Source of the DNA: a virus
Length of the DNA: 64,000 nucleotides
Direction: 5' to 3' (one strand)
Virus record (IMG/VR): IMGVR_UViG_3300009181_006602
Location: 26,525 to 90,524 of that record
Within the stretch, counting starts at the first letter, position 1; each line of letters opens with the position of its first letter. The translations under genes and the position numbers were made by a program. Shown one piece after another: positions 18,103 to 38,125 of this stretch. The notes below the pieces were generated by a model. The model had not been told where the DNA came from and did not search any database. It was given only the letters and a program-made list of their open reading frames with translations.

Positions 18103-19257
18103 TTATGATATTATACAACCAAGACGATTATATTCTTTAAAAAAGGAACTGTAATAATGCTCGGCTACCTTTAGTGACGTTAACGGATATAAGTTACCAT
18201 TGTATTCAATGACACCATGGGTAGCAGCTATCTTAATCGCTCGAAGCGCTCTATCAATCATGAAACTTCTTTTATACGTATTGTGATCTGCTTTTAACGA
18301 TATTGTTACTCTATTCGATCCTAGATTTTTTATTCTTTTTGCCATCAACTCTTTCGTTGCTGTTAATTCAACTTCTAGTAATTTTTTTTGAAGTAATAAT
18401 ATATGTCGATCAACGTCAAGTCTAGTATTACATTTTTCTACTAAAATACCGGCTTCACTAATGTTAATATAGTCAACACGAGGGGCTAATGATATATCGA
18501 CATTGTTAATCAATTGTCCTTTTAAAGTTGATATTAGATCGCCACCAGAAACTATTGCAATATCGTTCAATAAATTAACACCGTCTAAATCATACTTGAC
18601 TATAAATGGCAATATGGATAGCGAACCTCTTTCGCAGTTAACCTTGATAGTATGTGCTACATCATCAGACATGCCTCGTACAAAAAGAAAAACATTGTCC
18701 TTTATTTGTGAAGCGTCTTCTAGTATGCGATGTATTTCTGAAACTGATTCTACATATCCATCGATGCATATCACCTTAGGACCTAGATATTTCGAATTTT
18801 TTAATTTTAATATTGAAACAACATCAGGGAAAAAGCTACCATCATTTAGCTCAACTACGTCTTCATTGTGTTGCTGGTTTAATAAAACGACTTTACCGTT
18901 TAGACCAGCTAAACATATTGCCTCGTGTACAAGATCTGCTAGCCCTTTATCAACATATGTTGATATAAGCGTTTTTAAGTTAACGCCATCCAACTTTTGA
19001 CAAAAGTTGTTGCAATCGATCTTGTTATTTTTATCTACGTTTAAAAGAAGCTGCAACATTAAATCAGATGCCCCAGCTGAGAGAGTCTCTACTTTGATTA
19101 AGTACGTTAACAATAAATTAGAAATCGCAGTTTTTGTGGATGTTTCAAATTTTAATTGTTGCAGCGCTTGTAGTCCTAAGTTTGTATTAAGACAATTTTT
19201 ATAATTTTTTAAAATGCTAGCTAAATGTACGTCAAGTTCTTTTGTAACTATTTCCAC
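18103..19257 (-). CDS. Divergent, shortened GroEL-like chaperonin
   Basis: 384 residues against about 545 for GroEL, from a GTG start (19255-19257). GroEL landmarks read in order. TAISNLLL...LSAGAS (43-64) aligns without gaps to TATVLAQA...AAGAN. HEAICLAGLNGKVVLL (111-126) matches the intermediate domain. PKVICIDGYVESVSEIHRIL (160-179) and LLNDIAIVSGGDLIS (229-243) match the apical domain. RIKNLGSNRVTISLKA and DRALRAIKIAATHGVI (308-350) match the return to the equatorial domain. By hand alignment the ATPase residues Asp87 (in GDGTT) and Asp398 are replaced by Thr39 and Arg336. The GGG nucleotide loop is also lost, and most of both equatorial ends is missing. It may be an ATP-independent, apical-domain chaperone or a decoy/partner of host GroEL. 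Confidence 0.75.
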   Translation of the reverse strand: MEIVTKELDVHLASILKNYKNCLNTNLGLQALQQLKFETSTKTAISNLLLTYLIKVETLSAGASDLMLQLLLNVDKNNKIDCNNFCQKLDGVNLKTLISTYVDKGLADLVHEAICLAGLNGKVVLLNQQHNEDVVELNDGSFFPDVVSILKLKNSKYLGPKVICIDGYVESVSEIHRILEDASQIKDNVFLFVRGMSDDVAHTIKVNCERGSLSILPFIVKYDLDGVNLLNDIAIVSGGDLISTLKGQLINNVDISLAPRVDYINISEAGILVEKCNTRLDVDRHILLLQKKLLEVELTATKELMAKRIKNLGSNRVTISLKADHNTYKRSFMIDRALRAIKIAATHGVIEYNGNLYPLTSLKVAEHYYSSFFKEYNRLGCIIS

Positions 19258-23985: not shown

Positions 23986-24978
23986 ATGAGTAAGCGTGCT
24001 TTCATAACAGGCGTAACTGGTCAGGATGGTAGCTATCTTGTTGATCTTTTGGCATCAAAAGGTTACGAAGTACACGGTCTTATCAGACAATCTACGCAAT
24101 TTACGCCTGATCGTTGGGGACACTTAAAAGGAGCAATGTTGTCTAAAAAGCTAGAAGTTCATCATGGCGATCTAATGGACGCATCAGGAATGAGAGTAAT
24201 ATTAGAAACCATTCAACCTGACGAAGTTTATAATCTCGCAGCGCAAAGCCATGTTGGTATATCTTTTGAACAGCCAGTTAATACTTCAGAAGTTACAGCT
24301 CTTGGCACGCTTTATCTATTAGATGCGATCAAACGTTCTAAATTAAATTGTAAATTTTATCAGGCATCATCAAGCGAGATGTTCGGAAAAGTTAAACTGA
24401 CTCCGCAAAACGAAGAAACGCCTTTTTATCCTAGAAGCCCATACGGTTGCGCAAAAGTATACGCTCATTATATTACACAAAACTATAGAGAATCCTATGA
24501 CATCTTTGCATGCTCAGGCATTTTATTCAATCATGAATCCGAGCGAAGAGGAGAAAACTTTGTGACTCGTAAAATCACAAGAGCCATTGGTCGTATTAAA
24601 GCTGGTTTGCAAAACGAGTTGCGAATGGGAAATACGACGGCGCTTAGAGACTGGGGATATGCACCTGAATACGTTGAAGCAATGTGGCTAATGTTGCAAC
24701 AAGATCAGCCTAACGATTATGTGATAGGTACAGGAACGCAACACTCTGTTCAAGAATTTATCGATGCAGCTTTCGCCATCGCCGGCCTTGATAAAGATCA
24801 ATATATCAAAATAGATCAGAAATTTATGAGACCGTCGGAAGTAGATACACTTATCGCCGATACTTCGAAGGCTAAAGAAGTTTTGGGTTGGACACCTCAA
24901 GTTGACTTTAACACGCTTGTTAAAAAGATGGTAGAGCATGATATTGCGTTGGCAGAGAAGGAAAAATCTCTTTTCTAA
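23986..24978 (+). CDS. gmd: GDP-mannose 4,6-dehydratase
   Basis: 330 residues, close to the usual length for bacterial Gmd. Extended SDR family: NAD(P)-binding ITGVTGQDGSYL at 8-18, YNLAAQSHVGISFEQPVN (Gmd signature), SSSEMFG, and the catalytic SPYGCAKVYAHY with Tyr153 and Lys157, then FNHESERRGENFVTRKI, also characteristic of Gmd. It converts GDP-mannose to GDP-4-keto-6-deoxymannose, precursor of GDP-fucose, GDP-rhamnose or GDP-perosamine. No fucose synthase is seen nearby, so the next step may be by a host or elsewhere-encoded enzyme. Confidence 0.95.
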   Translation: MSKRAFITGVTGQDGSYLVDLLASKGYEVHGLIRQSTQFTPDRWGHLKGAMLSKKLEVHHGDLMDASGMRVILETIQPDEVYNLAAQSHVGISFEQPVNTSEVTALGTLYLLDAIKRSKLNCKFYQASSSEMFGKVKLTPQNEETPFYPRSPYGCAKVYAHYITQNYRESYDIFACSGILFNHESERRGENFVTRKITRAIGRIKAGLQNELRMGNTTALRDWGYAPEYVEAMWLMLQQDQPNDYVIGTGTQHSVQEFIDAAFAIAGLDKDQYIKIDQKFMRPSEVDTLIADTSKAKEVLGWTPQVDFNTLVKKMVEHDIALAEKEKSLF

Positions 24979-26738: not shown

Positions 26739-27642
26739 TAGACGACCTGTTAAAGGTCCTTGGGGAGGCGGTTCTAAAGTGCTTTCTTCCGTCGTAGAAG
26801 AATGTCACAAGCGTAATCATGCAGTGATATTCGAAGAACAATTAGATCTTACTAATGGAGATGTTGATCTAATCGTGTGCTTGGATCCTAGACCTAATCA
26901 AAGCGTTGATTTTAAAAAGATGCTTGAATACAAGGAGAAGTTTGGAAAAAAAATTCTTCAAAGAGTCGGTGATCTTGGTACACATGGGAAACCAGAACTT
27001 TTTGAACTTTTGAAAAAAACTACGCCACTAGTAGATGTTCTCGTATTTCCTAGTAACTGGGCAAAAAAATATTTAAATCAAGACGACTCAATACAACAAT
27101 ATGTAATTAAAAATGCGCCATTACCAGCGTTTGTCTTTAGCAAGAATTACGAAAAATCATTTGATGAGAAAATAAATCTTGTAACTCATCACTGGTCTGA
27201 TAATGTCAATAAAGGATTCGACTTTTATCAAGAGTTAGACAATTATTGTTTAAATTCTAAAAAGTTTACATTTACATATATCGGAAGGGCTCCTCGAAAT
27301 ATTTCCTTTAATAGACACCTACCTCCACACGATGTAAGCGGATTAATCGATGAGTTGCCAAATTATCACATATACGTTACAGCTTCTAAACTTGAGGCTG
27401 GCGCTAATCATGTTCTTGAGGCATTAGCGTTGAATTTGCCTGTACTTTATCACAGCGATGGAGGCAGCATACATGAATATTGCAAAGATCATGGATTTTC
27501 TTATACCAATTTAGAAGAATTAACGTATATCTTAGAAAACCATATTGAACACATCTATTCCATTTTTATAAAAATGTCTGTAACCAGGCAATCCTTAGAC
27601 ATGGCAAAAGAATACGTAAATTTATTTGAGACCCTCGCGTGA
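26722..27642 (+). CDS. Family 4-like (GT-B) glycosyltransferase
   Basis: 306 residues from ATG 26722; a longer frame opens at 26671 but its extra 17 residues are out of character and MKIYFNRRPVKGPWGGGSKV is a normal GT-B start. Donor-domain signatures: SDNVNKGFDFYQEL, YIGRAPRN, and ASKLEAGANHVLEALALNLP followed by VLYHSDGGSIHEY (EX7E motif). It overlaps the methyltransferase gene by 17 bases and the deacetylase-like gene by four. Donor unknown. Confidence 0.82.
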   Translation: MKIYFNRRPVKGPWGGGSKVLSSVVEECHKRNHAVIFEEQLDLTNGDVDLIVCLDPRPNQSVDFKKMLEYKEKFGKKILQRVGDLGTHGKPELFELLKKTTPLVDVLVFPSNWAKKYLNQDDSIQQYVIKNAPLPAFVFSKNYEKSFDEKINLVTHHWSDNVNKGFDFYQELDNYCLNSKKFTFTYIGRAPRNISFNRHLPPHDVSGLIDELPNYHIYVTASKLEAGANHVLEALALNLPVLYHSDGGSIHEYCKDHGFSYTNLEELTYILENHIEHIYSIFIKMSVTRQSLDMAKEYVNLFETLA

Positions 27643-28346
27643 AAATTAATATTAGTATAGACGATGTTTCTCCGCATCCCCTTTCTTCTATACGCGTTAT
27701 AGAAAGATGTAATGAGATTATATCGATATTCCCAAGCGTAAAGTTTAGTCTCTTTGTTCCGGTCGCCTATTGGCGAACAGTTAAACATGGAACTACCACT
27801 GACAAACCTTTAAATATCGATCTTTTTCCTGATTTTTGTAATTTTATTAGTAAACTTTCAAAAGAAAATTTTGAAATTTGTTATCATGGATTTTATCATG
27901 GTATACCTGGTATAAGCGACAACGATGAATTTCAACGATTAAATGCAGACGAGGCTAAACAAAAATTTCAAACCATGTTTGAAGTTGTTGATCGAGCAGG
28001 CTTAGGGACTATTTTTAAGCCTATATTTAGACCGCCTGCGTGGAGAATGTCGCCAGACGCTATTAACGTTGCTCAATTATCAGGTATAGAAATATTAGCT
28101 CTTTCTCCAAAGACATATGCTAGAAAAATTTACGACGGCGCAGAAAATACTTTTGATAAAATTGTTTATTATAATTGCAATCCTCCGTTTGATGAGCTTA
28201 ACGCTTTTTCTCCTTATACCGAAATTGTCTACCACGCTTGTGAATGGGACTCGAATTATTTAAGCAAAGAAAAAACAATAGAATTAAAAAACTTTTTGCA
28301 ATTACAAAACAATGCAGAATTTTGTTTTATGAAAGATCTTATATGA
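27639..28346 (+). CDS. Polysaccharide deacetylase-like protein
   Basis: 235 residues with GTG start overlapping the previous stop. NINISIDDVSP-type opening (metal-binding Asp pair, ISIDDV), FSLFVPVAYW, FEICYHGFYHG (paired His motif) and FRPPAWRMSPDAI are the NodB/DUF2334-type motifs in order. Family members remove N- or O-acetyl groups from polysaccharides or sugar intermediates in a metal-dependent way. No signal peptide, so it should act in the cytoplasm, perhaps on a lipid- or nucleotide-linked sugar. Overlaps the cupin gene by four bases. Confidence 0.8.
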   Translation: MKINISIDDVSPHPLSSIRVIERCNEIISIFPSVKFSLFVPVAYWRTVKHGTTTDKPLNIDLFPDFCNFISKLSKENFEICYHGFYHGIPGISDNDEFQRLNADEAKQKFQTMFEVVDRAGLGTIFKPIFRPPAWRMSPDAINVAQLSGIEILALSPKTYARKIYDGAENTFDKIVYYNCNPPFDELNAFSPYTEIVYHACEWDSNYLSKEKTIELKNFLQLQNNAEFCFMKDLI

Positions 28347-28780
28347 TAATCTTAAAAAAGATTCAAAAGATAAAAACGCCGGATGGTTGTATGATTCCCA
28401 TATATAGAAATTGGGATAATGAAACCAACGAAGGTCATGAACCTAAAATGGTTTATGCTACAATGATAATGTCTAAAACAGAAAAAGATATTATACTTCA
28501 CGAACGTAGAATTGCTTATATGACCTGCATACAAGGCGTTGTCCAATTAGAAACTCACGTTGAAAATACGATTAAGACAACTTCGCTGTCTTCTAAAGAA
28601 GATGTAAACGGGATGATCGACCTTGTTATTATTCCTGCCAATATGCCAATAAAGTTGTCAAATCATGGTGACGAAACGGCGATTATCATAAATTGCCCCA
28701 GCCCGTCTTGGCATCCAAATGATCCTGACACCATAAAATTTAAAAATTGGAGTGAATTTAAAAAATGGAAAAAAGACTAA
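28343..28780 (+). CDS. Cupin-type sugar epimerase/isomerase-like protein
   Basis: 145 residues from ATG 28343, which overlaps the previous stop (ATGA); a longer frame from 28244 lies wholly inside the previous gene. IILHERRIAYMTCIQGVVQL, DLVIIPANMPIKLSNHG and PSPSWHPNDPDTIKFK resemble the small RmlC/FdtA/WxcM-like cupins that act on 4-keto-6-deoxy nucleotide sugars. It directly precedes a dTDP/UDP-sugar 4,6-dehydratase gene (16-base overlap), whose product would be its substrate. Epimerase versus 3,4-ketoisomerase cannot be decided by eye. Confidence 0.65.
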   Translation: MIILKKIQKIKTPDGCMIPIYRNWDNETNEGHEPKMVYATMIMSKTEKDIILHERRIAYMTCIQGVVQLETHVENTIKTTSLSSKEDVNGMIDLVIIPANMPIKLSNHGDETAIIINCPSPSWHPNDPDTIKFKNWSEFKKWKKD

Positions 28781-29739
28781 AAAAACCTTGTCACTTTTTA
28801 GTGACAGGCGGTTTGGGGTTTATAGGTAGCTTCTTCATAGAAAAATGCTTGTCTTTAGGTCATAGCGTAACGAACATCGATAAGATCACCTATGCTTCGA
28901 ATACTGATATAAAGTTTATCGGAGAATATAAATTCATTCAAGAAGACATATGCGACATTAAAGAAATACCCAACTGTGACATTATAGTAAATTTCGCCGC
29001 CGAGTCACATGTAGATAATTCAATAACTGAAAGCTTTAACTTTTTGAATTCCAACGTTAAGGGTATTTATAACTTGTTGGAAATAATAAAGAACAACAAA
29101 ATAAAAAGTGCTTTGGCGGCTCAAAAATATGCTAGTCCATTATTTGTACAGATTAGCACCGACGAAGTCTTTGGAGATATAGCTGAAGGATTTTTTAAGG
29201 AAGAAGATAGACACAAAGCCAGCAATCCTTATTCGGCGACTAAAGCCGCCGCAGAACAAATATTATTTGCGTGGGCCAGAACTTATGATATACCTTTTTT
29301 GATGACTAGAACAACGAACAATTATGGTAAAAGGCAACATCCTGAAAAGTTGATACCGAGAGTTATAACGAAGTTACTAGCAGGAGAAAAAGCCCCTATT
29401 CACGGTAACGGTTCATATATTAGAAACTGGATTCACGTCGAAGATAATATCGAAGCGATATTACGAGTTATCGATCTTGGAACTCTAAATGAAGTTTATC
29501 ATATTGCTTCCGAAGAAGAATATACTGTTAATGAAGTTGTCGAGCGAATTTGTAGAGTTTTAAATTTAAACTTTAAAGACAGAACAGACTATAGTTCAGA
29601 TAGAGCCGGTGCTGATTCAAGGTATGCACTTGATTTTCAAAAGATAACAAAACTAGGCTGGGTTCCAAAGAGAAGCCTTGAAGAATCACTAATAGAAATC
29701 GTAGAACACTATAGAAATAAAAATGATACCACTTTTTAA
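28765..29739 (+). CDS. rfbB: dTDP-glucose 4,6-dehydratase-like enzyme
   Basis: 324 residues. FLVTGGLGFIGSFFIEKC (NAD-binding), NFAAESHVDNSI, the diagnostic STDEVFGDI (Thr132-Asp133-Glu134), and NPYSATKAAAEQI with Tyr156 and Lys160; then TTNNYGKRQHPEKLIPRVI. These are the RmlB hallmarks. It makes dTDP-4-keto-6-deoxyglucose, the branch point to rhamnose and 3- or 4-amino-6-deoxysugars. A UDP-GlcNAc 4,6-dehydratase function is possible but less supported. Overlaps its cupin neighbour by 16 bases and the aminotransferase by 17. Confidence 0.9.
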   Translation: MEKRLKKPCHFLVTGGLGFIGSFFIEKCLSLGHSVTNIDKITYASNTDIKFIGEYKFIQEDICDIKEIPNCDIIVNFAAESHVDNSITESFNFLNSNVKGIYNLLEIIKNNKIKSALAAQKYASPLFVQISTDEVFGDIAEGFFKEEDRHKASNPYSATKAAAEQILFAWARTYDIPFLMTRTTNNYGKRQHPEKLIPRVITKLLAGEKAPIHGNGSYIRNWIHVEDNIEAILRVIDLGTLNEVYHIASEEEYTVNEVVERICRVLNLNFKDRTDYSSDRAGADSRYALDFQKITKLGWVPKRSLEESLIEIVEHYRNKNDTTF

Positions 29740-30814
29740 GATTCATTCGCCCGCAGGCGTCGGAACAAAAATACAAGAAGTTTTTGATGCAGGAGTTATA
29801 ACTGAAGGAGAATTCTCTGATAAATTCGAAAGCGAGTTTGGTTCTTACGTTGGTAATTCAAACTGCTCTTTAGTTAATAGTTGTACTTCGGCTTTGACAC
29901 TTGCATATAGATTATCAGATCTAGGTCCTGATACGGAAATTATCACGACCCCTATGACCTGTATGGCAACCAACGAACCAGCCCATCTAACAGGAGCAAA
30001 GCTGGTTTTTGCTGACATTGACCCGACAACAGGTAATATTGATCCAGAATCAATAAAGAAAAGGTTATCAAAACGAACTAAAGCAGTCGTCGCCGTTCAT
30101 TGGTCTGGTCAACCTTTCGATATTAACTCAGTACGACATGTCGTTAAACAATATAATCCAAATATCAAGATTATAGAAGACGCCGCCCATGCGCTTGGAG
30201 CGTCTTATGAAAACAAACCTATAGGAGGTCATTCTGATTATGTTTGTTTTTCATTTCAAGCTATCAAACACCTAACGACCGTTGATGGTGGAGCAGTATG
30301 TTCTCTTTTAACAAATGACGACGCCAGGATAAAAAAAATTCGTTGGTTCGGTTTAGATAGAAAATACGTTGGTCCGCGGTGGGAACAAGATATAACAGAA
30401 TCAGGTTATAAGTTTCACATGAATAACGTAAATGCTATCATCGGATTAGAACAGATGAAGCATTTAGACTTTATTGTTAATTCTCATAAGAAAAATGGTA
30501 AACTATACGATACAAGGATAAACAATCCTAAAATCGAAAAGCTTCGTCGAGATAGTTGCGCAGAGTCTTCTTACTGGATCTATTCGTTACTCGTTGACAA
30601 CAAAGAAAAATTCAAACAACATCTTGCTATGAACGGGATAGCTTCAGATGTAGTTCACGTGCGTAACGATCACTATAGCGTCTTTGGAGATTTTAAACAA
30701 CAAGACCTCAGCGGGACCGATAAGTTTTGTAATAAGATGATTAATATACCTGTAGGTTGGTGGTTGAGCGATGCCGATTTAGATAAAATAGTCGATGTCG
30801 TTAATAACTACTAA
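29723..30814 (+). CDS. DegT/DnrJ/EryC1-family PLP aminotransferase
   Basis: 363 residues. PLP-enzyme signatures: NSCTSALTLAYRL (phosphate cradle), TTPMTCMATNEPAHLTGAK, IEDAAHALGASY (Asp153 that contacts the pyridine nitrogen), and FSFQAIKHLTTVDGGAV with Schiff-base Lys182. Such enzymes transaminate keto groups of nucleotide 4-keto-6-deoxysugars. The gene order dehydratase, aminotransferase, GNAT fits formation of an N-acetylated amino-deoxysugar. It overlaps rfbB by 17 bases. Confidence 0.93.
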   Translation: MIPLFKIHSPAGVGTKIQEVFDAGVITEGEFSDKFESEFGSYVGNSNCSLVNSCTSALTLAYRLSDLGPDTEIITTPMTCMATNEPAHLTGAKLVFADIDPTTGNIDPESIKKRLSKRTKAVVAVHWSGQPFDINSVRHVVKQYNPNIKIIEDAAHALGASYENKPIGGHSDYVCFSFQAIKHLTTVDGGAVCSLLTNDDARIKKIRWFGLDRKYVGPRWEQDITESGYKFHMNNVNAIIGLEQMKHLDFIVNSHKKNGKLYDTRINNPKIEKLRRDSCAESSYWIYSLLVDNKEKFKQHLAMNGIASDVVHVRNDHYSVFGDFKQQDLSGTDKFCNKMINIPVGWWLSDADLDKIVDVVNNY

Positions 30815-31285
30815 ATGTATATGATGATAAGTTTAAGACGCGTTAATAAAAGCGATCTTGGTTTTATTAACACCATTAGAAATGACACGTCGACAAGAAG
30901 TCAGTTAGAGAATACTAATACTATTTCTTTAGAAGAAACAGTCAAATGGTTTAATGAAAAATCTCCAATTTGGTTTATTATTAATCGCGAAATTGAACAA
31001 GTAGGTTATATTAGAACTAGCTTCGATACGGGTACTTCTATCTGTATAGGCTGTGATATAGCGCCAGCACAAAGAGGAAAAGGATATGCCGAGGCAGCAT
31101 ATCGACACTTGATTCCTGAGCTATATGAAAAAGGCTATTCAATAATTTGGTTAGATGTATATCGTGACAATATACCTGCATATAACTTATATAAAAAACT
31201 AGGATTCTATGAAGTCGGATCAAGTTGTAGAATTATTAATAATAGAGAATACATCACGATGATCCACGCGAGGAAGAATACGTGA
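30815..31285 (+). CDS. GNAT-family N-acetyltransferase
   Basis: 156 residues. ISLRRVNKSDLGFINTIRND is a GNAT opening, and CDIAPAQRGKGYAEAAYRHL holds the acetyl-CoA pyrophosphate loop (Q/RxxGxG/A as QRGKGYA). WLDVYRDNIPAYNLYKKLGF is the classical motif B. It follows the aminotransferase immediately, so its likely job is to acetylate the new amino group, as FdtC, PseH or PglD do. Start could also be Met3 or Met4. Confidence 0.88.
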   Translation: MYMMISLRRVNKSDLGFINTIRNDTSTRSQLENTNTISLEETVKWFNEKSPIWFIINREIEQVGYIRTSFDTGTSICIGCDIAPAQRGKGYAEAAYRHLIPELYEKGYSIIWLDVYRDNIPAYNLYKKLGFYEVGSSCRIINNREYITMIHARKNT

Positions 31286-32088
31286 CAGTAGATTTGCAAA
31301 TAGCGATACCGTGTGGTCCTAATAGCGAAAGATTCGCCAACTTTTTAATTAAGACTATCGAATCCACAATATCGAAAACATTGAATTATCGTTTTTTAAT
31401 AGGTGTCAATAAACCTAAAGTCGATAAGACCATAATAATCGGTGACCATCCTGCAAATAAATTTGATTTTATAGAAGAATTTTCGCAAGAGACAAGTAGC
31501 CTAGGCCACGCGCATTGTCTTAATCTCATGTTAAAAAACATGAATTCTAAGTTTGGATTTTTTTTAGATTCTGACGTGGCAGTTCTAGAAAAAAATTGGG
31601 ATATTCTATTATTGGATAAGTTAAAAGATAGAACTATCATGATAGGTAGCGAATATCATCACTCTGATGGCAAGATGGTGAAAAAGCCTAATGTTATTAC
31701 TTGCGCGTTTGACATCGAAATCTTTAAAAAACTAAAGCTAAACTTTACGCCTTCTTTAAAAAAGATAGTTACGACTCATGAAACAGCACAGTTTTATGGA
31801 ACACAAATTGGGCAATCCATTATGTTGGATACAGGTTGCGAAATTATGGAAACTATCTCAAAAAACGGATATGAAACAGACACTCTAAAAATAGTGTCTT
31901 CTCGTTATCAAGAAACCGTGTCTGAATTAAAGGTCTTAGATTCTTATCAACGCGGTGAAGAATATCATCTAAACGATAAGCCTATTTGTACTCATATAGG
32001 ACGATCATTAACTAGAGATTTCAAAAAAGACCCTATCGTCAAGGCGTGGAAAGATAGCGTTGAACATTGGCTTTATGGGAAAATCTGA
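31282..32088 (+). CDS. GT-A-fold glycosyltransferase-like protein
   Basis: 268 residues with GTG start preceded by GAGGAA. LQIAIPCGPNSERFANFLIK, TSSLGHAHCLNLML and the DxD-containing FGFFLDSDVAVLEKNWDIL (metal and nucleotide binding) resemble GT2-like enzymes. Later THETAQFYGTQIGQSIMLDT is not a standard motif. Donor unknown. Overlaps the GNAT gene by four bases and the following gene by 14. Confidence 0.72.
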   Translation: MTVDLQIAIPCGPNSERFANFLIKTIESTISKTLNYRFLIGVNKPKVDKTIIIGDHPANKFDFIEEFSQETSSLGHAHCLNLMLKNMNSKFGFFLDSDVAVLEKNWDILLLDKLKDRTIMIGSEYHHSDGKMVKKPNVITCAFDIEIFKKLKLNFTPSLKKIVTTHETAQFYGTQIGQSIMLDTGCEIMETISKNGYETDTLKIVSSRYQETVSELKVLDSYQRGEEYHLNDKPICTHIGRSLTRDFKKDPIVKAWKDSVEHWLYGKI

Positions 32089-32707
32089 TCCTATTATACT
32101 CAAGGAATATGCCAGATTTCTTGAAAGCGAAATAAGTTTATGTAACTCGGTGGCATTTTTAGGATTTAATCAAGAGAATTCTTTTACGCTTGGTGTCAAG
32201 GCAGATGTAAGACATTTTTATGATGCGCAATTAAACAATTGGGATATTAACGATGACTGGTCATTGAAACAAAATTACGATTTAATCGTGTGTACGCGGT
32301 GTGCTTATTTCTCAAAAGAACCTTCAAGGTTTATAGAAAAGTGTAAACAACATCTTAACGATGCCGGCCTTGCGATGGTCGACTGGGGCTTAGGCGACCA
32401 TTGGAGATTTAACAACTACAAGGTAGGTTGGTTACGAGATGGGGAACACGAGTTTGCCTACAAACAAGAAAATTTTTTGTATTCTTGCTTTTGGAATGAA
32501 AATCTACGAAAAGACGTTAATGTAGAATTATTTTGGAACCAGATTTTAACAAACAAAAAATTTGGCTACACGTTAAATAACGACTTAGAAGAAGTCATAA
32601 AAGAAGAGGTGCCGAGCTTAGTCAATTATGACATAAAAAAAATTAAAACTATTTTTCTTTGGCCTGAATCTCCGCAACTTTATATTATTACATTAATTCA
32701 AAAATGA
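32075..32707 (+). CDS. Methyltransferase-like protein
   Basis: 210 residues from ATG 32075, preferred to an upstream start at 32060 because both lie in the previous gene and MGKSDPIILKEYARFLES is a natural N-terminus. VAFLGFN, YDLIVCTRCAYFSKEPSRFI and GLAMVDWGLGDHWRFNNYKV fit the strand order of a SAM methyltransferase (post-motif region), but the glycine-rich motif I is poor. Related proteins are seen in surface-glycan clusters. Function is a guess. Confidence 0.5.
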   Translation: MGKSDPIILKEYARFLESEISLCNSVAFLGFNQENSFTLGVKADVRHFYDAQLNNWDINDDWSLKQNYDLIVCTRCAYFSKEPSRFIEKCKQHLNDAGLAMVDWGLGDHWRFNNYKVGWLRDGEHEFAYKQENFLYSCFWNENLRKDVNVELFWNQILTNKKFGYTLNNDLEEVIKEEVPSLVNYDIKKIKTIFLWPESPQLYIITLIQK

Positions 32708-32714
32708 GCGAGAT

Positions 32715-33698
32715 ATGACAGCAATGCCAAAACTAGGATTTATTCTTGACGGAATGACATATTTGAAGTATTACATTCCATTGATAGAGGAAGCAAACAC
32801 ACGTGGCTTTCACTCAACTTTTTTAATTTCTAGAAGCTACAAATATAACTGTCCTTATGTAAGTGACCACCAGCAGATATTAAAAAATATTTGCGATATC
32901 TATAATATAGACTTACAAATCCTCGATGAAAAAATCACTAAAAAGCTTGACGTTATATTCACTGTAGAAGGAACAAAGATACAACACATCGAAAAATCTA
33001 AAATCTTTTCTTTGTGTTACTCAACAGACTTTACATTATCGTATGAATCTTATATTGATAACGTAAAATACGCGATTATGTCTAGCAAGTTTATTGCGAA
33101 CTATTATGGGAAAACAAAAAGCAATAATCTTTATCTTGGAACTCCAAAGTTTGATGTCAAGTTAGATGATGCAATAATTAGAAATAAATACAATTTAGAT
33201 AACGATAAATATGTCACCATATTTTATCCGCGTTTAAGAGACATCTCGAGCGCGCCTTTAAGAAAAATAACGGAAGATTTAAATAAATTAGGTTATAAGC
33301 CTATTCTTAAAACTAGATTAAAAGATCCTATCGCAGAGGCTGATTATCATTTGTCTAAATTTAATTTTGCAGACGCTTCATGGCATCCCCATACATCGCT
33401 TGAATTAATAAAAATTAGCGATTTTGTTATTAATTTTAGTTCCAGCGCAATAGAAGAAACTACAGCATTACAAACACCACTAATTAATTTCCATATTAAG
33501 CCATTTAAAAAGCCTTTTGAATTCTTATATGAGTCTTCTTTCGTTCAAAATATGGACACAAATTATTCATTACAGGAATTCAAAAATGCGGTTGATAGAC
33601 TAACAACGCTTGATTTTTCTAATGATTTCTTTGAAGCTAATAAAAAAATGTTCGATACAAAAGTTTCATCAAAAGATATTATTGACAAAATAACATGA
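32715..33698 (+). CDS. GT-B-like transferase, CDP-glycerol phosphotransferase-like
   Basis: 327 residues. GFILDGMTYLKYYIPLIEEA opens a GT-B fold. YVTIFYPRLRD, GYKPILKTRLKDP and SDFVINFSSSAIEETTALQT then PLINFHIKPF match the C-terminal half of CDP-glycerol:polyol phosphotransferases and related UDP-GlcNAc 2-epimerase/PseG-like GT-B proteins. Given NeuA- and NeuB-like genes just downstream, a hydrolase or epimerase step of nonulosonate synthesis is one option and teichoic-type phosphotransfer another. Confidence 0.6.
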   Translation: MTAMPKLGFILDGMTYLKYYIPLIEEANTRGFHSTFLISRSYKYNCPYVSDHQQILKNICDIYNIDLQILDEKITKKLDVIFTVEGTKIQHIEKSKIFSLCYSTDFTLSYESYIDNVKYAIMSSKFIANYYGKTKSNNLYLGTPKFDVKLDDAIIRNKYNLDNDKYVTIFYPRLRDISSAPLRKITEDLNKLGYKPILKTRLKDPIAEADYHLSKFNFADASWHPHTSLELIKISDFVINFSSSAIEETTALQTPLINFHIKPFKKPFEFLYESSFVQNMDTNYSLQEFKNAVDRLTTLDFSNDFFEANKKMFDTKVSSKDIIDKIT

Positions 33699-34255
33699 AA
33701 GTTACAGTAATCATTCCAGCCCGCGGAGGTTCAAAAAGATTAAAAAATAAAAACGTGTACCTAGTTTGGGGTATGCCTATGATTTATTGGGCAATTAAAG
33801 CATGCAAGGAATCTAAGCATAATCTTGATGTATGGGTCACAACTGACACGTCAGACATAGCAAAAATAGCTGAATCATTCGGTGCTAATATTATTATGCG
33901 AGATGATTCTACTTCTAATGATTTAACATTTAAGCAAGTTGCCATTAGAGAAGCCGCCGCTAAAATAGATTCACAAAAGGGTCAAAGCGAAATTTATATT
34001 TCATTGCAACCAAATTCTCCTGAAATTAAATCTATCGATCTTGATGGTGCCATAGATTGCTTATTGAAAAACAATAAAGATGAAATAATTAGCGTAGACT
34101 CAAACTTTATGCAAAATGGAGCGTTTAGAATTTTCAAAGGAAAATATGTTTATCAACAAGATCTATCAACAAATTGCGGGTTTTATATTTGCAATTTAAA
34201 GGACATACATACAGTTAAAGATGTTGAGGCCTTGATAGACGAAAAGAAAAATTAG
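33695..34255 (+). CDS. Acylneuraminate cytidylyltransferase-like (CMP-nonulosonate synthetase)
   Basis: 186 residues, shorter than the usual 220-230. VTVIIPARGGSKRLKNKNVY is the CTP-binding P-loop of NeuA/PseF/LegF, followed by MPMIYWAIKACKES, VWVTTDTSDIAKIAESFGA and YISLQPNSPEIKSIDLDGAI. QNGAFRIFKG and the GFYI strand are kept, but the dimerisation region is trimmed. It activates a nine-carbon 2-keto sugar acid as its CMP derivative. The NeuB-like gene lies 78 bases downstream. Overlaps the previous gene by four bases. Confidence 0.85.
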   Translation: MKVTVIIPARGGSKRLKNKNVYLVWGMPMIYWAIKACKESKHNLDVWVTTDTSDIAKIAESFGANIIMRDDSTSNDLTFKQVAIREAAAKIDSQKGQSEIYISLQPNSPEIKSIDLDGAIDCLLKNNKDEIISVDSNFMQNGAFRIFKGKYVYQQDLSTNCGFYICNLKDIHTVKDVEALIDEKKN

Positions 34256-34333
34256 ATTTATAGATTGCAGTGCGAATATCGGTCAATCAATAGAGCGGGC
34301 AATTAAATGCTTTAATTAAATAGGATTAATAAC

Positions 34334-35023
34334 ATGACATATATTATAAGCGAAATTTGTGGTCAGTGGGGCGGTTCAGAGAGAAAAGCAGAACAAATGA
34401 TTCTTCAATCGAAGATGATGGGAGCCGATGCAGTTAAAGTACAACTATTCGACACATATAAACTGCCAGGACAAGATCGACACCTATGGGAATATTTGTC
34501 GATGAAGAGAGAATGTTTTATTCGTTTGGCTGAGTTTAGTAAGAGATTGAATATTGATTTTTTTGCTTCCGCTTTTGACGAAGAGAGGTTTCAATGGATT
34601 CAAGACGCCAATCTAAAATATAATAAAATAGCAAGTTCATTAATAGAACTTGATCCAGATCTTTGCAGAGTTATGTTAGATTCTAATATGAAAACTTTTT
34701 TCTCTTTAGGTAAGTGGAACAATACAAACTTACCTTTCGAAGATACTAATATTGAATATTTTCATTGCGTAGCAAAGTATCCGCATACATTCGAAGAAGC
34801 GCTTCAAACCTTGCCACAAACTTTTGATAATAGAGTGTCTGGTTACTCAGATCATGTAGTCGGAATAGATGCAGCGAAAGAAGCTGCTCGCCGTGGCGCA
34901 AAATATATTGAGAAACACTTTACGTTAGACAAAAATTCGCAATCTAAGACTGAAGGAGCCCACGCGTGCAGTATGGACATGGAAGACTTAAGATGTTTGA
35001 GATTATTTTGTGATTCGCTATGA
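34334..35023 (+). CDS. NeuB-family nonulosonic acid synthase, TIM barrel only
   Basis: 229 residues; classic NeuB/PseI/LegI are about 335-350. IISEICGQWGGSERKAEQMI, GADAVKVQLFD, KIASSLIELD, FHCVAKYPHTFEEAL, SGYSDHVVGIDAAKEAARRG and IEKHFTLDK are the successive barrel motifs. The usual GPDHAFS site reads EGAHACSM. The C-terminal SAF (antifreeze-like) lid domain is missing, and the gene ends in an ATGA overlap with a glycosyltransferase gene, so this is the natural end and not a frameshift. It condenses phosphoenolpyruvate with an N-acyl hexosamine-type sugar. Start supported by AGGA nine bases upstream. Confidence 0.87.
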   Translation: MTYIISEICGQWGGSERKAEQMILQSKMMGADAVKVQLFDTYKLPGQDRHLWEYLSMKRECFIRLAEFSKRLNIDFFASAFDEERFQWIQDANLKYNKIASSLIELDPDLCRVMLDSNMKTFFSLGKWNNTNLPFEDTNIEYFHCVAKYPHTFEEALQTLPQTFDNRVSGYSDHVVGIDAAKEAARRGAKYIEKHFTLDKNSQSKTEGAHACSMDMEDLRCLRLFCDSL

Positions 35024-35805
35024 TAGATTTTTCTATAATCGTCACAATAAAAAATAGAAAAGAACATTTTTTAAAAACGTTTTCTTCTTTGGTTACCCAA
35101 CAACAACCATGGTCATACGAGGTTAATTTTATCGATTATGGTTCTCAGGATGGCTTTGGCGAATCTTTAAAAAAAGAGACGATAAGATACACGGATCTTT
35201 TTTCAGATTCGCTTAAAGCGATTAATAGAATCTTTATAGAAGACGATCTTAAGTTCAATAGCGGCAAAGCAAAAAACATAGGTTCTTATTTTTCTAGTGG
35301 GAATTTTGTTTCATTCTCCGACGTTGATGTATTTCTTGGTATGGATTATCATCGACATTGGCTTCAGCTGTTGATGTATAATGACAAACACTTTTTTTCT
35401 TCTCGTGTACAAGAAACTACAGAAAGATGTTCTAGACGATTAACTTCAAAAACCAATTATGGAAATATGATAGTTGCTAAATCTAGCTTTAATGTTGTGG
35501 GTGGTTTCGATGAAAATAATCCGACGTGGGGCGGCGATGATGATGATATCGTTCATAGATTAAAGTTATATGGATTAAGAGAAATTAATCCTCATGATGT
35601 TTATGAATCACATCACACTAGCATTATTCATGATGACGAGCTTAGAACTAAATTTCTTGAATCATCGGAAAAAGATTCTATAATATCAAAACAAAAGCTA
35701 ATTGCTATTTATAATAATACAAGTTTTATTAATCCCAATTTTTTGTTTTTTTACAATGATATAAAAAGTTTAGTTAAAGTTGAAAAAATATATGAACGTA
35801 CCTGA
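35020..35805 (+). CDS. Family 2 / galactosyltransferase-type glycosyltransferase
   Basis: 261 residues. FSIIVTIKNRKEHFLKTFSS (GT2 N-terminus), NFIDYGSQDG, the DxD motif in VSFSDVDVFLGMD, and GGFDENNPTWGGDDDDIVHR, which is the C-terminal Glyco_transf_7C/galactosyltransferase signature. Overlaps the synthase gene by four bases and the next GT gene by 14. Donor could be UDP-hexose; not proven. Confidence 0.85.
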   Translation: MIDFSIIVTIKNRKEHFLKTFSSLVTQQQPWSYEVNFIDYGSQDGFGESLKKETIRYTDLFSDSLKAINRIFIEDDLKFNSGKAKNIGSYFSSGNFVSFSDVDVFLGMDYHRHWLQLLMYNDKHFFSSRVQETTERCSRRLTSKTNYGNMIVAKSSFNVVGGFDENNPTWGGDDDDIVHRLKLYGLREINPHDVYESHHTSIIHDDELRTKFLESSEKDSIISKQKLIAIYNNTSFINPNFLFFYNDIKSLVKVEKIYERT

Positions 35806-36412
35806 TGTTTCAATAATCGTTACTAACTATAACTATGCGCCTTATCTTCAGCGTTGTTTAAGAAGCATTTTAAATCAAGAAAGTATTAATCATGAAATCA
35901 TTGTTATCGATGATTGTTCTACAGATAATTCTTTAGAGACACTAAACGTTTTTAAAAATGACGTCAAAATTCTTTCGACACAAACAAATTCTGGCGTAGC
36001 AGCAGCCGCTAACATCGGTATAAAAGCAGCCCGCGGACAATTTATAATAAGAGTTGATGCAGATGACTACGTGTCTTCTAACATGTGCTATTTCATGAAA
36101 ACATATTTAGAATCAAATCATGATGCATTCTGTGTGTCATGCGATTATCATATAGTCGATAATCACGAAAACTCCGTACAAAGAAAATACGCAGAAAAAG
36201 ATCCTATCTCATGCGGTATTATGTATAGAAAAGATCTTTTCTTACAACTTGGCGGATACAACGACGCTATGAGACATAGAGAAGAAGAAGAACTTCGAAA
36301 AAGATTAGGCGAATATTATCAAATACATCACCTAAAAATCCCATTCTATCGTTATAGAATGCACAATAGTAACAAGACAAAAACGTCAGAATATAGTGAA
36401 TGCAAAATTTAA
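35792..36412 (+). CDS. Family 2 glycosyltransferase
   Basis: 206 residues from ATG 35792; a TTG at 35780 is less likely. VSIIVTNYNYAPYLQRCLRS, IIVIDDCSTDNSLETL and FIIRVDADDYVSSNM form a textbook GT2 core with DxDD. The C-terminal part is short (GGYNDAMRHREEEELRKRLG then the end), so it is a compact single-domain enzyme. It overlaps the preceding GT gene by 14 bases. Confidence 0.87.
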   Translation: MNVPDVSIIVTNYNYAPYLQRCLRSILNQESINHEIIVIDDCSTDNSLETLNVFKNDVKILSTQTNSGVAAAANIGIKAARGQFIIRVDADDYVSSNMCYFMKTYLESNHDAFCVSCDYHIVDNHENSVQRKYAEKDPISCGIMYRKDLFLQLGGYNDAMRHREEEELRKRLGEYYQIHHLKIPFYRYRMHNSNKTKTSEYSECKI

Positions 36413-36423
36413 TATTAAAAATC

Positions 36424-36427
36424 GAGG
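36424..36427 (+). promoter_or_regulatory. Ribosome binding site deciding the dehydrogenase start
   Basis: GAGG before ATG 36432 supports this start over the in-frame ATG at 36396. Confidence 0.5.
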
Positions 36428-36431
36428 TTTT

Positions 36432-37187
36432 ATGAGAGTCGGTATTCTTGGATATGGAGAGATAGGACAAGCTATTCATAAGTTGTATAGCAATTCATGC
36501 AATAACTTGAATACGCAAATATTCATTAAAGATTTAAATAGAAATGATGAATTTCAAAATTTAGATGTTTTAAACGTGTCTATTCCATATAATGATTCTT
36601 TCAATTTTATAGATGTTGTAAGCACCATTGCGATTGAATCAAATGCAAAAATGTTGATTGTTCACTCGACGATACAGGTCGGCACTATTAAAAAATTAAA
36701 AGAAATATTGCCGAATACAAAAATTGCGCATTCTCCGTGCAGAGGAATTCATCCAAATCTTTATGAAGGATTATTAACATTTCCAAAATTCGTTGGAGCA
36801 ACATCAACGTTAGACGCTGACGAAGTTGCGCAACATTTGCATTTAATTAATATTAAAACTTTTATTTGCAAAAATTCTGAAACAACAGAATTAGCTAAAT
36901 TATTAGATACAAGTTATTATGGAATCTGTATCGCGTTTCATGGAGAAGCTTTTAAAATATGCGAAAAAGCTAATGCAGACTTTGAACAAGCCATGACTAT
37001 ATACAACACATCATACAACGATGGATATACAAAATTAGGAAAACAAAACGTTGTAAGACCAGTTCTTACTTCCCCCGTTGACGGAATCGGTGGCCACTGC
37101 GTTGTAGAAAATGCAGAATTGTTATTAAAACAATTTAACTCGACTGCATTAAATTTGATTGTTGAATATAAAAAGGAAAACAAATGA
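36432..37187 (+). CDS. Short UDP-sugar dehydrogenase-family protein
   Basis: 251 residues from ATG 36432, chosen because GAGG lies four bases upstream and VGILGYGEIGQAIHKLY should be near the N-terminus. VHSTIQVGT, TTELAKLLDTSYYG and GIGGHCVVENAEL with catalytic-type Cys223 place it in the UDP-Glc/UDP-ManNAc (WecC-like) dehydrogenase family, but the C-terminal UDP-binding domain is absent. It may be a single-step oxidoreductase or work with the 313-residue paralogue immediately downstream (four-base overlap). Confidence 0.72.
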   Translation: MRVGILGYGEIGQAIHKLYSNSCNNLNTQIFIKDLNRNDEFQNLDVLNVSIPYNDSFNFIDVVSTIAIESNAKMLIVHSTIQVGTIKKLKEILPNTKIAHSPCRGIHPNLYEGLLTFPKFVGATSTLDADEVAQHLHLINIKTFICKNSETTELAKLLDTSYYGICIAFHGEAFKICEKANADFEQAMTIYNTSYNDGYTKLGKQNVVRPVLTSPVDGIGGHCVVENAELLLKQFNSTALNLIVEYKKENK

Positions 37188-38125
37188 CACCAATTGCGAT
37201 TGCAATTATCGGACAAGGTTTTGTAGGAGGGTCTTTAGCTACTATTTTTTCCGAACGAGGTTTTGATGTTTATGCTTATGATAAAGCAGGAAAGTATGCA
37301 AAAGGATCTCTACCAAGCCATGGAGATCCAGTTGCAAGTTACCCAGGATCCATTGCAGAATTAATTGGGGATAATGAGAATGGTGGAACACCGGGGTTTT
37401 CTAATGTTTATTTTGTGTGTCTTCCAACACCAATGAATGAAGATGGATCAGCCGATCTTTCTATCGTAGAAGGTGCATTAAAAGAATTGGCAGCTGTTCC
37501 TGGTGAACGAATTGCAGTAGTTAAATCAACTGTTCCACCAGGATCGACTGATCGCTGGAATAAAGAGTTTTTAGAATCTGGACTTCATGTAATTTTTAAT
37601 CCAGAATTTCTAACAGAAGCAAATGCGTTAGATGATATGCGAAACCAAAGTCGTATCATTCTTGGAGGTCCACGCCCGTGGATTAATACCGTTAAGCAAG
37701 TTTTTCAAACAGCATTTCCAAAAGTTCCTCTTATTAAAACATCATCTACTACTGCTGAAATGATAAAATACGTTACTAATAACTTTTTAACTGTAAAGGT
37801 TATGTTCGCAAATGAAATGTATCAAATTTGCAATGCTTTAGATAAAGCCGGCGCCAATGTAGACTATGATAAAGTAATTGAATATGCAAAATATGACAAG
37901 AGATTAGGCGATAGTCATTGGGCAGTGCCAGGTCCAGATGGTCATCTTGGAGTAGGTGGAAGCTGCTTTTGTAAAGACATCAATGCAATGACATATGTTG
38001 CTGATCAATTGAATATTGACACGCCTGTGTTGGACGGCGCGTGGAAAAAGAACTTAGAAGTCCGTCCTGAAAGAGACTGGGAATTGCTTATAGGCCGTGC
38101 TGTCTCCACTAAAAATAACAAGTAA
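37184..38125 (+). CDS. UDP-glucose/GDP-mannose dehydrogenase family protein
   Basis: 313 residues. AIAIIGQGFVGGSLATIFSE (NAD-binding), CLPTPMNEDGSADLS, VKSTVPPGSTDRW, FNPEFLTEANALDDM, TAEMIKYVTNNFL and GVGGSCFCKDINAM with catalytic Cys261 are all conserved family motifs. The C-terminal UDP-binding Rossmann domain is shortened (about 390 residues in typical enzymes). Probably oxidises a nucleotide sugar at C6 to the uronate. It overlaps the related gene upstream by four bases and has a good Shine-Dalgarno (AAGGA). Confidence 0.88.
   Translation: MTPIAIAIIGQGFVGGSLATIFSERGFDVYAYDKAGKYAKGSLPSHGDPVASYPGSIAELIGDNENGGTPGFSNVYFVCLPTPMNEDGSADLSIVEGALKELAAVPGERIAVVKSTVPPGSTDRWNKEFLESGLHVIFNPEFLTEANALDDMRNQSRIILGGPRPWINTVKQVFQTAFPKVPLIKTSSTTAEMIKYVTNNFLTVKVMFANEMYQICNALDKAGANVDYDKVIEYAKYDKRLGDSHWAVPGPDGHLGVGGSCFCKDINAMTYVADQLNIDTPVLDGAWKKNLEVRPERDWELLIGRAVSTKNNK

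Follow-up and report, generated by a model that had tools for sequence, protein, structure and literature searches.

Introduction

Within the NeuB/SiaC, PseI and SpsE family of ulosonate synthases (PF03102), the R314A mutation abolishes the activity of Neisseria meningitidis NeuB (PMC6795526), and one synthase position is Gly in the synthases of sialic (Neu) and legionaminic acid (Leg) and Phe in those of pseudaminic acid (Pse) (PMC7371886). The cytidylyltransferases to be set beside them are the NeuA/PseF synthetases of cytidine monophosphate (CMP)-activated sialic acid, ketodeoxynononic acid (Kdn) and Pse. The current work concerns compact predicted counterparts of both enzymes, designated NeuB' and NeuA', encoded next to a protein designated HYP327 (starting at position 32715) on a stretch of viral DNA of 64,000 nucleotides, hereafter the window, which corresponds to bases 26525-90524 of the 90.5-kb IMG/VR virus record IMGVR_UViG_3300009181_006602, obtained from environmental DNA. 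Judging from sequences and structural models, the most probable product of the phage is a CMP-activated ulosonic acid of a non-standard kind, destined for a glycan of the virion or the host surface, and the interval under study probably comprises two independent sugar-nucleotide modules within a T4-like phage glycan island.

A literature survey covering N-acetylneuraminate synthase in viruses and phage genes for pseudaminic or sialic acid yielded no report of this trait. The names neuA and neuB appear among virome KEGG functions in a paper on cellular contamination (PMC3877843), and a moraphage paper (PMC12619734) mentions core glycosyltransferases and no sialic-type genes; a Bacillus megaterium phage paper (PMC6292376) was discarded, as it contains only a KDN reference and author names starting with 'Neub'. 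Since, in addition, the PHROGs library contains no family for NeuA', NeuB' or HYP327 at E <= 0.001, current annotation would largely miss the trait.

The compact synthase and cytidylyltransferase

In agreement with a previous sequence-only reading of this DNA, which had proposed a NeuB-type synthase and a CMP-sugar synthetase, both genes are present, adjacent and with core catalytic residues kept, and their family matches are above cut-off (Table 1). NeuB' is reduced to the TIM barrel that it shares with the described synthases: its open reading frame (ORF) stops after the barrel, at 229 amino acids versus mostly 336-350 for NeuB in the bacterial loci examined, so that the SAF (antifreeze-like) domain carrying R314 is absent, and all phage relatives are 226-239 amino acids long. 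It does not reach the cut-off of the N-acetylneuraminate synthase equivalog TIGR03569 (100.8 versus 399.65 bits), and the phage NeuB' profile aligns with N. meningitidis NeuB (1xuu, 7e-21) and best with 6ncs (5e-35).

The end of the active site that is associated with phosphoenolpyruvate (PEP), the metal (Mn) and C1 is retained, equivalents of K53, Q55, F112, K129, Y186, S213, H215, E234 and H236 being found in 17 of 17 NeuB' sequences and that of E25 in 16 (D in one), with S or T at the position of T110. At the sugar end, N184 is replaced by A, P, S, C or V, and the equivalents of D247 and R314 are absent. The active-site residues other than K53, H236 and D247 were taken from the list of PMC6795526. 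K53, H236 and D247 are further sites in the structure of the N. meningitidis enzyme. The residue following K129-x-x-S, taken to be the Gly/Phe position of PMC7371886, is S, M, I, R or G in NeuB', as opposed to a uniform G (Neu/Leg) or F (Pse). Because the PEP/metal end is intact and the sugar-end residues are lost, synthase chemistry is probably retained with an altered sugar specificity; E207 and H210, both invariant, may form part of another sugar pocket, and the substrate is probably neither N-acetylmannosamine (ManNAc) nor a Pse/Leg precursor. The missing sugar-binding residues and SAF domain also render a standard N-acetylneuraminic acid (Neu5Ac), Pse or Leg product unlikely.

NeuA' is similarly compact (186 amino acids versus about 232 in the bacterial loci examined, thus ~40 residues fewer). 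The best matches of its AlphaFold2 (AF2) model (predicted local distance difference test score, pLDDT, 92.3) are the synthetases of CMP-NeuAc, CMP-Kdn and CMP-Pse (TMq 0.81-0.91), ahead of KdsB and IspD. With the NeuA/PseF enzymes it shares the fold, the N-terminal PARGGSKRLKNKN motif and the first Asp of the C-terminal DxD, whereas QPTSP has become Q(P/A)NSP and DID has become D(I/V)H, the resulting QxNSP and D-x-H motifs being invariant in 16 of 16 phage sequences. A role as a CMP-ulosonate-type cytidylyltransferase is a plausible prediction. The best NCBIfam model is PseF at 84 bits versus a cut-off of 205.7. Taken together, the two genes constitute, by family membership, a CMP-ulosonate-like module of NeuB and CTP_transf_3 family members that does not show features defining the Pse and Leg pathways and canonical sialic acid synthases.

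The shortening of both proteins, the loss of some sugar-binding residues and the presence between their genes of a remnant of an FkbM-type methyltransferase gene could also be explained if NeuA' and NeuB' were decaying or repurposed, non-enzymatic remnants of a host nonulosonate locus. This explanation is highly improbable, and decay was rejected on conservation and selection: the short form is common to all relatives down to 38% identity and recurs in a bacterial gene pair (see below), the catalytic residues are invariant, the ORFs are intact, and the ratio of non-synonymous to synonymous substitution rates (dN/dS) of NeuB' is 0.036 and 0.028 for the two pairs with measurable dS, indicative of strong purifying selection. 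The FkbM gene itself is intact in three related contigs (L001, L009 and L010) and wholly missing in another (L002), the remnant having been compared in L003, whose locus is identical to that of the window.

The HYP327 protein

HYP327 is encoded directly upstream of NeuA' and yields no Pfam, NCBIfam or PHROG match. The sequence-only reading had put it forward as the uridine diphosphate (UDP)-sugar hydrolase/epimerase of the pathway; as a NeuC-like enzyme it would furnish a self-contained path from UDP-sugar to CMP-ulosonate, with the synthase and cytidylyltransferase steps unchanged. The fold is in keeping with this proposal, since NeuC ranks first (Z 21.1), and so are the constant position of the gene upstream of NeuA' and a profile match (hhalign) to NeuC (E 6.7e-8, restricted to residues 131-327, the C-terminal half) which is better than those to Glyphos (9.4e-6) and WecB (the latter set consisting of three sequences). 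However, TagF is tied with NeuC in the fold ranking (Z 20.1, within 1), and the catalytic residues do not bear the proposal out. With the hydrolyzing-epimerase residues taken from the list for human GNE (D112, R113, E134, D143, R147 and H220; PMC4793188), no equivalents of R19, R113 or H220 were found in the HYP327 family, the N-terminal NeuC motifs GDRxE and HxxGGE..G..DE..RH are absent from it, and the possible replacement positions are not invariant (E85 in 14 of 15 sequences, D105 in 13 and D115 in 10). Furthermore, no member matches PF02350, while the islands of two related contigs (L024 and L029) hold a genuine UDP-GlcNAc 2-epimerase gene (Epimerase_2, PF02350) as well. A NeuC-like function is accordingly considered doubtful and, because the NeuC catalytic residues were not found, the model and sequence make a transferase role more likely than an epimerase role. 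In one related contig the HYP327-type gene is split into two ORFs (L001:7474-8484), with NeuA' and NeuB' intact.

The dehydratase, aminotransferase and acetyltransferase genes

Upstream of HYP327, the remaining genes named by the sequence-only reading are likewise present as intact ORFs whose coordinates equal or closely approach those it gave, with family matches far beyond chance. Their assignment as earlier steps of the same nonulosonate pathway was not supported. The dehydratase carries the STDEVFG signature and scores 315 bits with the deoxythymidine diphosphate (dTDP)-glucose 4,6-dehydratase model TIGR01181, 109 with LegB and 20 with PseB, each below its curated cut-off (365, 475 and 408 bits, respectively), so that the label 'RmlB-type' rests on model ranking; the closest solved structures are also dTDP-glucose 4,6-dehydratases (PDB 2hun, 1.7e-66), and dN/dS is 0.046. 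Of the outcome that the sequence-only reading had named as contrary to its proposal, namely a dTDP-glucose-specific dehydratase accompanied by inactive NeuA/NeuB homologues, the sequence thus points to the dehydratase half, and to that half only.

Over its whole length, the aminotransferase can be aligned with 4zwv/4xau (1e-68; 360 residues with 4zwv) and 4zas (2.7e-62), and it contains the pyridoxal phosphate (PLP) lysine context SFQAxKHLTxxDGG. These structures are AtmS13 (4zwv/4xau) and CalS13 (4zas), TDP-4-keto-6-deoxysugar aminotransferases from antibiotic pathways. Dehydratase and aminotransferase match the RmlB and AtmS13/CalS13 families over their full length; the phage-borne genes differ, in this comparison by sequence, in adjoining a GNAT gene and in the lack of RmlA from the phage record, for which reason dTDP-glucose would be host-supplied. 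Given that the GNAT gene adjoins the other two, the simplest product, and the one that best fits the sequences, would be a dTDP-4-acetamido-4,6-dideoxyhexose.

In a single nonulosonate pathway these three enzymes would instead generate a 2,4-diacetamido-trideoxyhexose, to be released by HYP327 and converted by NeuB' and NeuA' into CMP-Pse or CMP-Leg. All genes are co-directional inside 7 kb, NeuC heads the fold ranking for HYP327, and the best NCBIfam models are PseC for the aminotransferase (226 bits; LegC 189) and PseF for NeuA'. The PseC score is nevertheless, like that of PseF, far under its cut-off (423.5 bits; 420 for LegC), the dehydratase is RmlB-type rather than PseB or LegB, and the NeuB' residue after K129-x-x-S is neither uniformly G nor F. 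Together with the distribution of the genes among relatives, presented below, this makes a single pathway distinctly unlikely.

Distribution among related viral contigs

Relatives of NeuA', NeuB' and HYP327 were taken from IMG/VR, and the proteins of the window were mapped onto them. All 15 non-redundant related contigs contain the three genes together; the genes between NeuA' and NeuB' vary and sometimes include an FkbM methyltransferase gene. In contrast, the dehydratase-aminotransferase-GNAT cassette is missing from L001, L010 and most other relatives that keep the HYP327-NeuA'-NeuB' set, a related aminotransferase (60-87% identity) being found, besides L003, only in L002, L009 and L026, each time with a dehydratase and a GNAT gene; the L009 dehydratase and aminotransferase show the same model ranking as those of the window. 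Among 13 virus records (that of the window and 12 related contigs, possibly fragments), none contains a PseB above cut-off or a match to PseG (TIGR03590). The type of the dehydratase, the separability of the cassette and the lack of PseB and PseG were the grounds for setting aside the single-pathway Pse/Leg reading.

The island is assigned to a T4-like myovirus because the same record contains, outside the window, a T4-type portal gene (Portal_T4, gp20-type) and a Gp23 capsid gene (gp23-type). T4-like portal and/or capsid genes are found in 7 of the 13 virus records. The T4-type portal of the window's record is interrupted by an HNH-containing intein (L102:10068-13238, minus strand; record positions, outside the window), which is missing from the portal ORFs (~580-670 amino acids) found in five related contigs.

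Proposed pathways and their weighing

From the family and fold assignments, the conserved residues, the joint occurrence of genes and the purifying selection described above, we infer substrates, acceptor and biological role as follows. In the first module (28765-31285), the RmlB-type dehydratase would convert host dTDP-glucose to dTDP-4-keto-6-deoxyglucose, followed by transamination at C4 and probable N-acetylation to the dTDP-4-acetamido-4,6-dideoxyhexose. In the second (32715-35023), NeuB' would join PEP and an aldose (probably supplied by the host, and probably a sugar other than ManNAc) to form a 2-keto-3-deoxy-ulosonic acid, which NeuA' would activate with cytidine triphosphate (CTP) and which the adjoining GT-B protein, HYP327, would most likely transfer from its CMP-activated form. 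Both sugars, and the products of the guanosine diphosphate (GDP)-mannose 4,6-dehydratase (GMD) and of the nucleotide-sugar dehydrogenases encoded in the island, would then be combined by its glycosyltransferases into a virion or host-envelope glycan. A sialic-acid-like CMP-sugar is plausible since the synthase and cytidylyltransferase genes are adjacent and phage-conserved, with core catalytic residues kept. The end use could be decoration of the virion, alteration of the host envelope or modification of DNA; the abundance of glycosyl- and methyltransferases speaks for a glycan. Mimicry of eukaryotic surfaces, as suggested by the sequence-only reading, found no support.

Several points weigh against this scheme. 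Considering that NeuB' lacks a SAF domain and that R314A inactivates the meningococcal enzyme, its chemistry could be quite different; no source of a free aldose for it was identified, and several NeuB' pairs other than those given above are saturated at synonymous sites. HYP327 could instead be a sugar-releasing enzyme. Most related records may be fragments, and the co-occurrence data are compatible with the aminotransferase product feeding NeuB' in the window's phage.

A broader proposal, advanced tentatively as a possibility with somewhat less than even prospects, is that a T4-like phage clade employs a SAF-less synthase subfamily, CMP-synthetases of matching compactness and a dedicated GT-B transferase to produce an undescribed CMP-ulosonic acid, different from Neu5Ac, Pse and Leg, for virion decoration or remodelling of the infected-cell surface. 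If true, synthesis of a sialic-acid-type sugar would be a conserved trait of a T4-like phage group and not a one-off pick-up of host genes, and the compact enzymes would allow testing of whether NeuB chemistry needs the SAF domain and its arginine once the substrate differs.

Origin of the compact enzymes

Degenerate patterns, which reach near relatives only, retrieved no close bacterial relative of phage NeuB' from ~85,000 species genomes; one genome-contig match (L033) was just a canonical NeuB cut by the contig end. Profiles run against 118 Bacteroidota genomes and subsequently against 395, other phyla being sampled through plasmids only, returned a compact NeuA'/NeuB' pair in 1 of 395. In this genome (G058, locus L099, with the order NeuA'-AsnB-NeuB'), short NeuA and NeuB genes follow immediately, as in the phages, after a gene for a glycosyltransferase-like protein, probably with a GT-B fold, whereas the locus is one for a bacterial surface polysaccharide, the gene preceding the pair belongs to the MJ1255/MurG type, AsnB is placed within the pair and identity is 37-38%. 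In the tree, the phage NeuB' and the Bacteroidota sequence are on one side of a branch with 100/98 support, apart from the described NeuB, PseI and SpsE enzymes, with the bacterial sequence inside; the latter and that of L029 sit on long branches. The NeuB of Azospirillum argentinense plasmid p6 (WP_137119098.1) resembles NeuB' in its length (232 amino acids) and in lacking the SAF domain, yet clusters with canonical NeuBs, apart from the phage clade, and has no close NeuA' nearby. SAF loss is thus not phage-specific, and a phage-only origin of the compact NeuB was rejected in view of this protein and the Bacteroidota pair.

AsnB-type amidotransferase genes adjoin the SAF-less NeuB in two bacteria (L099:11266-13823 and L104:5140-7693), and another is present in the island of one phage (L009:14879-16513), hinting at an amidated product.

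The Kyanoviridae marine virus AG-345-L05 (MH319754), an unannotated single-cell virus, also encodes a NeuB-family protein beside an aminotransferase and an SpsF-like protein, in a different cluster with the order SDR - SpsF-like - aminotransferase - NeuB (L006:9364-12822). In contrast to NeuB', this protein has 272 amino acids, is 28-30% identical and groups with bacterial canonical NeuBs; it is a second, separate phage acquisition of ulosonate-type genes.

Layout of the glycan island

The genes discussed above are part of an island of co-directional genes (Table 1), in which no Rfam match was obtained. Neither the shortness of NeuA' and NeuB' nor the weak GT2-like (31282-32088) and methyltransferase-like (32060-32707) genes within the interval had been pointed out by the sequence-only reading. 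The two neighbouring nucleoside diphosphate (NDP)-sugar-dehydrogenase-like genes (36396-38125) are short versus bacterial enzymes, like those for NeuA' and NeuB', suggesting that compact sugar enzymes are a general trend in these phages.

Table 1 Features of the glycan island and its surroundings (window coordinates)
Feature	Position	Strand	Evidence
GroEL-like protein, 384 amino acids, beside the island	18103-19257	minus	phrog_5725, 5e-18
Glycan island: co-directional glycosyltransferases, methyltransferases and nucleotide-sugar enzymes	~20058-41437 (~21 kb)	+	ORFs, Pfam/PHROG matches
GDP-mannose 4,6-dehydratase (GMD)	23986-24978	+	PF16363, 9.5e-132
DUF2334 protein, putative polysaccharide deacetylase-like	27639-28346	+	PF10096, 3.7e-12
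Small protein adjoining the dehydratase, cupin-like by eye only	28340-28780	+	No Pfam match; 82% identical in L002
RmlB-type dTDP-glucose 4,6-dehydratase	28765-29739	+	GDP_Man_Dehyd, 7e-59; TIGR01181, 5e-94; STDEVFG signature
PLP sugar 4-aminotransferase, AtmS13/CalS13 type	29723-30814	+	PF01041 (DegT/DnrJ/EryC1/StrS), 7.5e-82
GNAT acetyltransferase, candidate 4-N-acetyltransferase	30815-31285	+	PF00583, 3.6e-14; PseH model, only 32 bits
GT2-like protein (weak)	31282-32088	+	PF00535, 0.0042, under cut-off
Methyltransferase-like protein (weak)	32060-32707	+	Kept in most related contigs
HYP327, GT-B-fold protein	32715-33698	+	AF2 pLDDT 92.7; 15/15 related contigs
NeuA', compact predicted CMP-ulosonate synthetase, 186 amino acids	33695-34255	+	PF02348 (CTP_transf_3), 1e-22, 81.5 bits versus cut-off 22.6
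FkbM-type methyltransferase remnant (RFIDCSANIGQSIERAIKCFN*)	34256-34333	+	74% identity over 23 amino acids to L001 FkbM
NeuB', compact predicted NeuB-type ulosonate synthase, 229 amino acids, TIM barrel only	34334-35023	+	PF03102, 2e-29, above cut-off
Glycosyltransferase (Glyco_tranf_2_2/Glyco_transf_7C)	35020-35805	+	Domain matches
GT2 glycosyltransferase	35780-36412	+	In every related contig reaching beyond NeuB', 61-82% identity
Nucleotide-sugar dehydrogenase-like protein	36396-37187	+	TIGR03026, 3e-15; PF00984
Short UDP-glucose 6-dehydrogenase-like protein	37184-38125	+	TIGR03026, 5.5e-58, first 295/413 positions; in most related contigs

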